From contig NZ_CP111036.1 in the NCBI RefSeq assembly GCF_026248685.1, forward strand, positions 868,001-932,000: 64,000 bases of DNA, written 5' to 3'. Origin of the DNA: Haladaptatus caseinilyticus (GTDB lineage Archaea > Halobacteriota > Halobacteria > Halobacteriales > Haladaptataceae). The notes under the pieces are model-generated. The model saw only the letters and a list, made by a program, of their open reading frames with translations. It was not told the DNA's origin and did not search any database. The position numbers were made by a program, and so were the translations under genes. How positions within the stretch are numbered: position 1 is the stretch's first letter; the number at the start of each line of letters is the position of its first letter. Below are positions 57,031 through 60,136 of the stretch, in pieces.

Positions 57031-58029
57031 ATGGGTCAAGGGGACGCGATACGGTTCGGTTTTACGGGTGACGTAATGCTCGGACGACTAATCGACGAAC
57101 GGCAGCGACAGCGGAGCGTCAGCGCCGTTTGGGGTAACATCGAGGAACACCTCGAAGCGTTAGATGGATTGTTTATCAACCTCGAATGTTGCCTCTCGGC
57201 CCGCGGAACGCCATGGACGGATACGTACCGACCCTTTCACTTTCGAGCGGACCCGGACTGGGCGATTCCGGCGTTGAAATCCGTCGGCGTCGATTGGGCG
57301 TCACTCGCGAACAACCATATTTTGGATTACGGTTCCGATGCCCTTCTCGATACCATCGAGTACCTCGACGACGCAGGAATAGCACATTCAGGTGCCGGTG
57401 CGGACGAAGACGCGGCCCGCGCTCCAGCCATCGTCTCGGTGGGCGACTACGACGTTGCTTTCGTTTCGTTCACGGATAACACGCCAGAGTTCGGTGCGGG
57501 ACGGGACGAACCCGGAACGGCCTACGTGGAGTTCGACGTAACCGACGACAAAGCGGCCCGTATCGTCGGCGATTCGATCGCCCAAGCCCGCAAAGCGAAC
57601 CCCGATTTGCTCGTTGCGTCGCTTCACTGGGGGCCGAACATGCGGACGGAACCCACGGTCGAGTTTCGGGAGTTTGCTCGATGGTTGGCCGAACAGGATG
57701 TCGATATCGTCCATGGCCACAGTGCCCACGTCTTCCAAGGCGTCGAAGTCGTCGATAATACGCTCGTTCTGTACGATACGGGTGACTTCCTGGACGATTA
57801 TGCGGTCGATTCGGAACGCCGAAACGACCGGAGTTTCATCTTCGAACTGGCCCTCAAGGACGGCGACCTCACGGAACTCCGGCTCCATCCGACCGAAATC
57901 TACGACCTCGCGGTCCACGAAGCGGAACACTACGCAGGTAACTGGAGTATGCAGCAGATGGATACCCTCTCGTCCGCGTTCGGAACGCAGTTCGAACGCG
58001 AGGACGACGAACTCGTGCTTTCGTTGTAA
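57031..58029 (+). CDS. CapA-type metallophosphatase-fold protein
   Basis: The 332-residue protein has the CapA pattern FTGDVMLGRLIDE, LINLECCLSARGTP-like (seen as FINLECCL), ANNHILDYG, ASLHWGPN and GHSAHVFQGVEV. CapA-type proteins belong to the calcineurin-like phosphoesterase fold and are linked to poly-gamma-glutamate capsule work in bacteria; in archaea the role is uncertain. No signal peptide is evident, so this copy may be cytoplasmic. It follows an AT-rich interval. It is next to the amidase gene on the same strand. Confidence 0.83.
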   Translation: MGQGDAIRFGFTGDVMLGRLIDERQRQRSVSAVWGNIEEHLEALDGLFINLECCLSARGTPWTDTYRPFHFRADPDWAIPALKSVGVDWASLANNHILDYGSDALLDTIEYLDDAGIAHSGAGADEDAARAPAIVSVGDYDVAFVSFTDNTPEFGAGRDEPGTAYVEFDVTDDKAARIVGDSIAQARKANPDLLVASLHWGPNMRTEPTVEFREFARWLAEQDVDIVHGHSAHVFQGVEVVDNTLVLYDTGDFLDDYAVDSERRNDRSFIFELALKDGDLTELRLHPTEIYDLAVHEAEHYAGNWSMQQMDTLSSAFGTQFEREDDELVLSL

Positions 58030-58131
58030 CGAACGACGTCGTGATCCCTTAACGATCACCGAGTGAGAGGAGCGGTTATATATTTGAATAGCTAGTGTTA
58101 GGAGATATTATTATAGATAAAACCTAGAAAG

Positions 58132-58140
58132 AAATATAAA
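58132..58140 (+). promoter_or_regulatory. TATA-like box of the amidase gene
   Basis: AAATATAAA lies about 27 bases before ATG 58167, in an AT-rich interval (58076-58140) unlike the surrounding GC-rich DNA. A second AT-rich string, TTATATATTT, lies further upstream. Confidence 0.55.
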
Positions 58141-58166
58141 GACCCGCCCAAATCAATAGATGTAGC

Positions 58167-58766
58167 ATGCAATCACGACGTGACCTACTGAAAAAAATTG
58201 GTGCGGCAGGAACTGCAGGTATCGGCGCAACGGCGTTGTCGAGTAGCACCGCCGTGGCAAAACCGGCAGTCGATTGGGAACCCGCCCATTCGAGCAACTA
58301 CACGGCCGCGAACCGTGGTGCGGCAGAAATCGACGCCATCGTCATCCACGTGGCCCAAGGCTCTGCCGAGGGGACGGTCAACTGGTTCCAGAACCCGGAC
58401 GCAAACGTCAGCGCCCACTACACCATCCGCGACGACGGATACAAATACCAGTCCGTCAGCGACATCAACGAGGCGTGGCACGCAGGTGGCGTTTCTTGGT
58501 ACAACGACGCCACCATCGGCATCGAACACGGTGGCTACGTCAGCAGTGGCTTCCCGACTGCGCAGTACCAGAGTTCCGCAGAACTCGTCCGCTGGCTGTG
58601 TGACCAGTACAACATCCCGAAGAGTCGTGTCTCCGGCGTCGCATCGTGTAATGGTGAAAGCGGCATCATGGGACACCACCAGGTACCCGAGACCGACTGT
58701 GGATACAACGACCACACCGACCCCGGTCCAAACTGGGACTGGGACTACTACATGAGCCTCATCTAA
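58167..58766 (+). CDS. Tat-exported N-acetylmuramoyl-L-alanine amidase (Amidase_2/PGRP fold)
   Basis: The 199-residue protein begins MQSRRDLLKKIGAAGTAGIG, a clean Tat signal (twin Arg, hydrophobic stretch, AVA-like cleavage near residue 31). The mature part is an Amidase_2 domain: VIHVAQGS (His61, zinc), GIEHGGY (Glu120, catalytic), GHHQV (His170 or 171) and HTDPGPNWDWDYYM (Asp185, zinc). This domain cuts the bond between muramic acid and peptide stem in bacterial peptidoglycan, which archaea lack. The likely role is an antibacterial exoenzyme or scavenging of bacterial walls. AT-rich flank hints at horizontal gain. Confidence 0.92.
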   Translation: MQSRRDLLKKIGAAGTAGIGATALSSSTAVAKPAVDWEPAHSSNYTAANRGAAEIDAIVIHVAQGSAEGTVNWFQNPDANVSAHYTIRDDGYKYQSVSDINEAWHAGGVSWYNDATIGIEHGGYVSSGFPTAQYQSSAELVRWLCDQYNIPKSRVSGVASCNGESGIMGHHQVPETDCGYNDHTDPGPNWDWDYYMSLI

Positions 58767-58876: not shown

Positions 58877-60136
58877 ATGACCCTGACGCTCTCGAAACCG
58901 ACCACATCAGCACCCGACAGTGCGGACGACGGCGTATGGCTCGCGTGTATCGCCTGTGAATGGACCGGCGCGCCATTCGACGAGATTCGCTATCGTTGTC
59001 CCGACTGTGACGGACTGCTCGAGGTTCGGTACGCCGACCATCCGACGTTCGATGATTTCGAAGGGAGCGGTGTCTGGCGCTATGCCGACGCCCTCCCCGT
59101 GAAATCCGGCGTGAGCATCGACGAGGGGAACACCCCCCTGTACGAAGCGCCGACCATCGAAGACGAGGTCGACGTCTCCTCCCTTCGAATCAAACACGAG
59201 GGGATGAATCCGACGGGCAGTTTCAAAGACCGCGGAATGACGCTCGGCGTGAAAGTCGCGGAAAAGCTCGGCACGGACCGGCTGGCCTGCGCGAGCACCG
59301 GGAACACCAGCGCCGCGTTAGCCTGTTACGGCGCGCGTGCCGATACCGAAGTGCTCGTCCTCTTGCCTGCCGGAAAAGTCGCCGCCGGAAAGGTGGCACA
59401 GGCGAGCCTCCACGGCGCACGAATCCTCGAAGTCGGCGGCAACTTCGACGATTGCCTCGACATCGTCTCCGACCTCGCAAATCGCGGCGAGGCGTACCTC
59501 CTCAACTCGCTCAACCCGTTCCGCTTGGAAGGCCAGAAAACCATCGGACTGGAGATCATCGAACAGTTCCGCGACCAAACCGGCGACCTCCCCGACCGAA
59601 TCGTACTTCCAGTCGGCAACGCCGGAAACACCAGCGCGCTGTTCAAAGCGTTCCGTGAACTCGTCGCCGCCGGTGAACTGACGGCCGAAGAAGTACCCAC
59701 TCTGACTGGCGTCCAAGCCGAAGGTGCGGCCCCAATGGTCGAGGCCGTCGAATCCGATGCGGACGAAGTCCGTCGCTGGGACGAAGTCGAAACAATCGCG
59801 ACCGCCATCCGAATCGGAAACCCTGTCAACGCCCCGAAAGCACTGCCGGCGATCCGAGAAACCGGCGGAACCGCAATCGCTGTCACGGACCACGAAATCA
59901 CCGACGCTCAACGAGCATTGGCGAGGGACGGAATCGGCGTCGAACCCGCCAGCGCCGCGAGCGTCGCTGGCCTGCGAAAACTCCGCGAATCAGGGAAGAT
60001 ATCGGCCGACGAGAACGTCGTCTGCCTGACCACGGGACACCTGTTGAAAGACCCCGATGCGGCAGCAAAAGCGGGCGTCGAACCGGAACCCGTTCCCGCC
60101 GACACCGACGACGTGTTGAGGCACATCTCGAGATAA
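58877..60136 (+). CDS. thrC: Threonine synthase
   Basis: ThrC converts O-phosphohomoserine to threonine with PLP. The 419-residue protein has an N-terminal zinc-ribbon-like start (CIACEWTGAPF with CPDCDGLLEV), the PLP Lys in NPTGSFKDRGMTLGVKVA, ASTGNTSAAL and LPVGNAGNTSALFKAF. The zinc-ribbon start is common in archaeal/actinobacterial ThrC. It follows the amidase by 110 bases on the same strand but is functionally separate. Confidence 0.94.
   Translation: MTLTLSKPTTSAPDSADDGVWLACIACEWTGAPFDEIRYRCPDCDGLLEVRYADHPTFDDFEGSGVWRYADALPVKSGVSIDEGNTPLYEAPTIEDEVDVSSLRIKHEGMNPTGSFKDRGMTLGVKVAEKLGTDRLACASTGNTSAALACYGARADTEVLVLLPAGKVAAGKVAQASLHGARILEVGGNFDDCLDIVSDLANRGEAYLLNSLNPFRLEGQKTIGLEIIEQFRDQTGDLPDRIVLPVGNAGNTSALFKAFRELVAAGELTAEEVPTLTGVQAEGAAPMVEAVESDADEVRRWDEVETIATAIRIGNPVNAPKALPAIRETGGTAIAVTDHEITDAQRALARDGIGVEPASAASVAGLRKLRESGKISADENVVCLTTGHLLKDPDAAAKAGVEPEPVPADTDDVLRHISR

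Follow-up and report, generated by a model that had tools for sequence, protein, structure and literature searches.

The stretch of DNA analysed here (the window) comprises 64,000 nucleotides of the Haladaptatus caseinilyticus genome (NZ_CP111036.1, positions 868,001 to 932,000). Among argE, argF, PGA_cap, thrC-like and MFS genes, it holds an open reading frame that starts with ATG at 58167 and ends at 58766 on the plus strand. The first-pass annotation had placed the start at 58076, which takes in the promoter; its description of a peptidoglycan amidase exported by a host that has no peptidoglycan was sound, as seen from the Pfam match (2e-30), the AmpD fold and the Tat motif. The features discussed below, numbered from the first letter of the window, are the following.

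57031-58029, plus strand: PGA_cap family protein (Pfam 2.7e-68), upstream neighbour, thought to have no part in the function
58125-58140, plus strand: TAGAAA (likely BRE) and TATAAA box, ~30 bp before the ATG, kept upstream of orthologues L059, L066 and L077
58167-58766, plus strand: predicted single-domain, Tat-exported Amidase_2 protein of 199 aa (PF01510, 2e-30; AlphaFold model; AmpD Z 19.8)
58167-58259, plus strand: Tat signal peptide, residues 1-31 (SRRDLLK motif, low-complexity A/G/S core, A-V-A before K32)
58347-58349, plus strand: His61, zinc ligand, AmpD H34 by alignment (72/72 archaeal and 110/110 actinomycete homologues)
58524-58526, plus strand: Glu120, catalytic, AmpD E116 by alignment, invariant
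58674-58676, plus strand: His170, zinc ligand, AmpD H154 by alignment, invariant
58713-58715, plus strand: His183, at the position of AmpD K162 (H 47, K 14, R 6, T 5 in 72 archaeal homologues)
58719-58721, plus strand: Asp185, zinc ligand, AmpD D164 (D 56, C 16 in 72 archaeal homologues)
58877-60136, plus strand: PALP (threonine-synthase-like, thrC; Pfam 1.4e-74), downstream neighbour and synteny anchor, adjoining the amidase in L059, L066 and L077

The protein scored 106 bits with the PF01510 profile (cut-off 26), whose positions 3 to 131 of 131 were covered by residues 53-188; this places the protein in the Amidase_2 family. No second domain was found by Pfam in the 199 residues and no anchor was seen either. 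An AlphaFold model built from 20 haloarchaeal homologues had a pLDDT of 86, mostly above 90 in the mature domain; nearly all poorly scored residues belong to the signal peptide. Its top fold match was AmpD (Z 19.8, rmsd 2.0 Å over 148 residues, 30% identity), followed by the endolysins XlyA and PlyL and then AmiD, these four lying at Z 17-20; peptidoglycan recognition proteins came below AmpD and the endolysins at Z of about 15. A zinc and catalytic set of His61, Glu120, His170/171 and Asp185 had been proposed from the sequence. Alignment with AmpD bears out H61, E120, H170 and D185, and H171 aligns with AmpD C155 and is not a zinc ligand. The active-site conservation that was to be checked is also found among haloarchaeal relatives, where H, E, H and D/C are kept in 72 of 72 aligned sequences. 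Aspartate in AmpD and cysteine in T7 lysozyme are both known zinc ligands, so the exchange seen at position 185 is conservative. Given the intact zinc site, the protein is predicted to be an enzyme and not a non-catalytic receptor.

The Tat signal was recognised by eye and from an alignment with related proteins, its exact cleavage site being inferred. It is as clean as had been claimed: SRRDLLK is present and none of the first 40 residues is a cysteine, hence there is no lipobox. The same motif recurs in the paralogues of this genome and in Streptomyces homologues. The mature protein (168 aa, pI 4.59, 21 acidic against 7 basic residues) is acidic, as expected of a high-salt protein.

To the left of the gene, the PGA_cap neighbour raises the idea that the amidase acts on an envelope or capsule polymer of the host itself, for example poly-gamma-glutamate made with that protein. 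The PGA_cap gene is directly upstream and syntenic in Haladaptatus, but a search of the genome for CapC (PF14102) found none, despite PGA_cap at 57031-58029; in Halorussus (L077) the amidase adjoins thrC and not PGA_cap, and the partners found in relatives are M23, SLT and glucosaminidase genes, not capsule genes. We consider this role very improbable, and rejected it on the missing CapC.

The order argE-argF-PGA_cap-amidase-thrC was found in two other Haladaptatus genomes, the locus thus being the same in three genomes of the genus. Pairwise dN/dS between the mature part of the gene and its orthologues was 0.065-0.13, with 0.066-0.119 for thrC; purifying selection on the amidase thus equals that on thrC. 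Amidase_2 genes were present in 9/9 Haladaptatus genomes and in 23/28 genomes of the family, which includes Halorussus, and were patchy outside it (26/265 other Halobacteriales genomes).

These results bear on a reading in line with the lateral gain proposed in the first pass, in which the gene is a recently acquired, bacteriocin-like weapon under arms-race turnover. Exchange is suggested by a near copy on a Halocatena salina plasmid, whose place in the tree is inside the Haladaptatus group, and the patchiness outside the family would also fit. Against this stand the shared locus in three Haladaptatus genomes and the position beside thrC in Halorussus, a dN/dS of 0.07-0.13, the presence of Amidase_2 throughout the genus and in most of the family, and a gene body without compositional anomaly (GC/GC3 0.59/0.72, medians 0.61/0.73). 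A recent weapon is therefore strongly disfavoured for this gene, and we would give it little chance.

The phylogeny with bacterial Amidase_2 proteins proposed as a check was run. A first tree that included distant phage and cyanobacterial rows gave long-branch joins, and the tree of 94 rows used here was built without them. In it, archaeal and Actinomycetota sequences are split by a single branch (support 100/99). The window gene falls into a group of six rows (100/98) made up of Haladaptatus, one Halorussus and two Halocatena-type copies. Actinomycetota were the nearest bacteria sampled: searches of plasmids and phages returned Streptomyces and Nonomuraea first, at 43-47% identity, and all others below 38%. 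Beyond Actinomycetota, the bacterial sampling came from plasmids and phages only, which makes the donor phylum tentative. One old cross-domain acquisition, followed by vertical descent in the family, is likely from the tree and the synteny. The Streptomyces homologues are likewise stand-alone and Tat-exported, so the Tat signal may have arrived with the gene.

The Halocatena copy (L118), which falls inside the Haladaptatus group although its host belongs to another family, suggests some exchange of amidases among haloarchaea. It is located on a 532-kb plasmid (NZ_CP096020.1) and shares 85% identity overall and 89% in the mature domain; the gene seems to be annotated from a start that leaves out the Tat signal. 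In another Haladaptatus genome, an Amidase_2 copy (L053, G002:C1:2514629-2514988) is interrupted by a stop codon and truncated at the N terminus, indicating that single paralogues do decay.

Phage endolysins have the same domain, and the gene could in principle be an endolysin-like acquisition from a virus or provirus. The best phage matches reached only about 35% identity and viral contigs at most 43%, none of them recognisably haloarchaeal; housekeeping genes lie on both sides, with no lysis cassette or viral gene context, and the Tat signal resembles that of exported amidases of actinomycetes. A viral origin, the least probable of the readings weighed here, was rejected on the low identities.

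The amidase is not alone in its genome. At least twelve Tat-exported hydrolases were identified (five Amidase_2, six M23 and one glucosaminidase), a count that covers these three families; two further M23 matches, one without a visible signal (C6, L273) and one weak, were not included. The window amidase therefore has four paralogues and seven further exported hydrolases as genome mates, all of which the first-pass annotation had missed. Two tandem pairs of Tat-exported M23 peptidases (L271:2564-4690 and L270:2617-4353) are part of the set. In one pair, each protein has two PG_binding_1 domains, as in Woldo of Halogranum salarium B-1; the other pair is SH3-like and accounts for two of the four M23 proteins with SH3-like N-terminal parts. 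The glucosaminidase has two PG_binding_1 domains, as in Danwoldo of the same organism. For comparison, modular hydrolases were reported in about 5% of archaeal genomes, with more than one in 12% of those (PMC12352652). A set of at least twelve exported wall hydrolases suggests that this lineage regularly lyses or digests bacteria.

The members of this set also resemble each other upstream. Over the 90 bp before the window gene (58077-58166) the GC content is 0.29, a lower value than in any other of the window's 35 intergenic upstream regions. The AT-rich promoter pointed out earlier is thus real; the lateral gain deduced from it is not. Upstream GC of the twelve hydrolase genes was 0.18-0.46, at or below 0.33 in 10 of the 12, and the median of 80 control genes was 0.54 (Mann-Whitney p 8e-8). 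Being common to scattered hydrolase genes, low upstream GC is a property of their promoters and not a mark of lateral gain. Recent gain as deduced from promoter AT is ruled out by the synteny, the dN/dS equal to that of thrC and the ordinary gene-body composition.

With the TATA box ~30 bp before the ATG, a leaderless or short-leader transcript would be expected; haloarchaeal BRE and TATA elements have been given as CGAAA and TTWT (PMC4983044). A CTAG or TAGAAA motif near -44 was found in 25/43 amidase genes and in 8/250 other genes with intergenic upstream regions, three of these eight being hydrolase genes, and TAGAAA or TAAGAAA occurred upstream of 5/12 hydrolase genes of this genome and 0/80 control genes, the CTAG/TAGAAA motif having been picked after looking at the data. 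Hydrolase promoters inspected in other genomes did not have it. As a regulon mark it was rejected on both grounds, and it is most simply a BRE beside the TATA box. Low upstream GC is the only promoter feature of the hydrolase genes that held up, and joint regulation of the twelve genes is possible but only suggested by it.

Evidence on the substrate was gained from the partners of Amidase_2 in relatives. Two proteins are fusions of Amidase_2, SH3_3 and Glucosaminidase domains (L093, L104), and several others, L049, L057, L062, L090 and L100 among them, carry two PG_binding_1 repeats like those of the glucosaminidase described above. Genome G084 (L111) has a series of co-directional glucosaminidase, M23 and Amidase_2 genes, separated by 39 and 15 bp. 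A run of lytic-transglycosylase-like (SLT), M23 and Amidase_2 genes is present in genome G282 (L108:2078-4462), all with Tat motifs and SH3-like parts, and in Halorussus vallis (L087) an M23 frame comes directly after the amidase. Across 293 Halobacteriales genomes, Amidase_2 was found in 12/14 genomes with the glucosaminidase and in 37/279 of the rest (p 1e-8, uncorrected for kinship); outside the family of Haladaptatus the figures were 4/5 and 22/260 (p 3e-4, likewise uncorrected). Since peptidoglycan is the common substrate of M23, glucosaminidase and SLT enzymes, it would be that of the amidase too. Bacterial peptidoglycan is thus a well-supported target on these sequence comparisons, and the view that the natural target is bacterial is supported by the conserved catalytic site, the fusions, the operons and the co-occurrence with glucosaminidase.

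Other genes were observed in the same neighbourhoods. In G084 (L111:2831-7767), the hydrolase genes are preceded by a D-aminopeptidase (M55) gene and followed by one for a Tat-exported alpha/beta hydrolase (DUF900, ISHSLGA motif), all in the same orientation. In genome G226 (L089:3392-5941), an 850-aa Tat protein combines a DUF900 alpha/beta hydrolase, four SH3-like repeats and Amidase_2. Through the neighbours in L111 and the fusion in L089, this hydrolase is associated with the amidase in two separate families, and bacterial lipids might be its target.

Taken as a whole, the data are best explained by a model where the amidase acts with the exported battery on bacterial peptidoglycan, to which we assign a probability of roughly 0.78. 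Its computed basis is the family, the fold, the catalytic residues, the Tat motif, the conservation, the paralogues and the operon and fusion partners in relatives; the activity, the release, the target bacteria and the benefit to the archaeon (lysing competitors, feeding or both) are inferred. A small acidic zinc N-acetylmuramoyl-L-alanine amidase would fold in the cytoplasm, leave through the Tat pathway already folded and then be released. Outside, it would cut the MurNAc-L-Ala bond in bacterial peptidoglycan, whether of neighbouring cells or of their debris, joined by the four other Amidase_2 enzymes, the six M23 peptidases and the glucosaminidase with its two wall-binding domains, so that the combined set could cut the amide bond, the peptide cross-links and the glycan. 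To our knowledge, haloarchaea have no peptidoglycan, and the host would therefore need no immunity. The survey of archaeal hydrolases presumes the same; in that work, two enzymes from another haloarchaeon (M23/glucosaminidase) proved lethal to a halophilic bacterium (PMC12352652); the earlier link to reports of archaeal peptidoglycan hydrolases used against bacteria agrees with that work (Strock et al. 2025).

Several points speak against this model. Lacking a wall-binding domain, the amidase may bind sacculi only weakly. Soluble muropeptides, and not intact walls, can be the substrate of Amidase_2 enzymes, as they are for AmpD. The weapon-like archaeal hydrolases reported so far are patchy and plasmid-biased, whereas this gene is vertical and housekeeping-like.

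The amidase could instead be nutritional, trimming muropeptides and debris of dead bacteria for the uptake of peptides and amino sugars without serving as a weapon. The housekeeping-like selection, the fixed locus and a stand-alone domain like that of AmpD, which works on soluble fragments, all favour such scavenging, as do the M55 gene upstream of the L111 hydrolase genes and the observation that archaea possessing such enzymes are enriched in a pathway for peptidoglycan uptake (Strock et al., PMC12352652). Many family members and genome mates, on the other hand, have wall-binding domains (SH3_3 or PG_binding_1) that fit work on intact walls. We regard scavenging as a real possibility that falls short of probable; it is compatible with the action of an exported battery on bacterial peptidoglycan and does not exclude it. 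Steady selection at a fixed locus favours regular use, such as feeding by lysis, scavenging or standing defence, over an arms-race weapon; the amidase may serve killing, feeding or scavenging.

A more speculative proposal, which we hold to be somewhat unlikely, casts Haladaptatus and its haloarchaeal relatives as bacteriolytic feeders. Their exported enzymes would form a conserved, jointly expressed set, partly organised in operons, that cuts every main class of peptidoglycan bond; an exported alpha/beta hydrolase might add an attack on membranes, and bacteria would be lysed and digested as regular food. If true, this would be an archaeal form of predation or necrotrophy. A housekeeping-like amidase within a set of at least twelve enzymes, along with operons of relatives that combine three bond specificities, moves the question from an occasional weapon to a possible regular lifestyle and makes Haladaptatus a concrete test case for killing versus feeding versus scavenging. 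A literature search on Haladaptatus with peptidoglycan or predation found nothing on such enzymes.

The principle is already known. An archaeal lysozyme family was described earlier (PMC4241558), and bacterial killing by archaeal peptidoglycan hydrolases was reported in 2025 for multi-domain enzymes of patchy, plasmid-biased distribution (PMC12352652). What is new is the conserved class of stand-alone amidases, the large and partly operon-organised set within a single genome, and the operon and fusion partners seen in relatives. The 2025 survey required at least one peptidoglycan-cleaving catalytic domain and a wall-binding domain, signal peptides being present in 32% (PMC12352652). The window amidase has the catalytic domain and the signal peptide and lacks the wall-binding domain, so it and the stand-alone clade holding it (27 sequences) fell outside that survey.

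Several known proteins are similar to the amidase in part. AmpD, a 1,6-anhydro-MurNAc-L-Ala amidase, has the nearest solved fold and the same catalytic residues, but is a cytoplasmic recycling enzyme, whereas the window protein carries an export signal and, at 56.5 bits, lies below the NCBIfam AmpD equivalog cut-off of 143 and is thus not assigned as an AmpD equivalog. Peptidoglycan recognition proteins, the NCBI name of close homologues, share the superfamily fold, and the window amidase keeps the zinc site. The Tat-exported Amidase_2 proteins of Streptomyces and its relatives have the same architecture (Tat signal and one domain, about 197 aa), 43-47% identity and the same catalytic residues; unlike the haloarchaeal host, these bacteria have peptidoglycan, and their sequences are separated from the archaeal ones by the 100/99 branch. 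Woldo (M23 with two PG_binding_1) and Danwoldo (glucosaminidase with two PG_binding_1; PMC12352652) are, like the window amidase, haloarchaeal and Tat-exported, with a peptidoglycan-cleaving domain in a host without peptidoglycan, and both have close architectural counterparts in the Haladaptatus genome. The window amidase differs from them in its family (Amidase_2), in having no wall-binding domain, in its conserved chromosomal locus and its multiple copies within the genus, and in that its activity is predicted.
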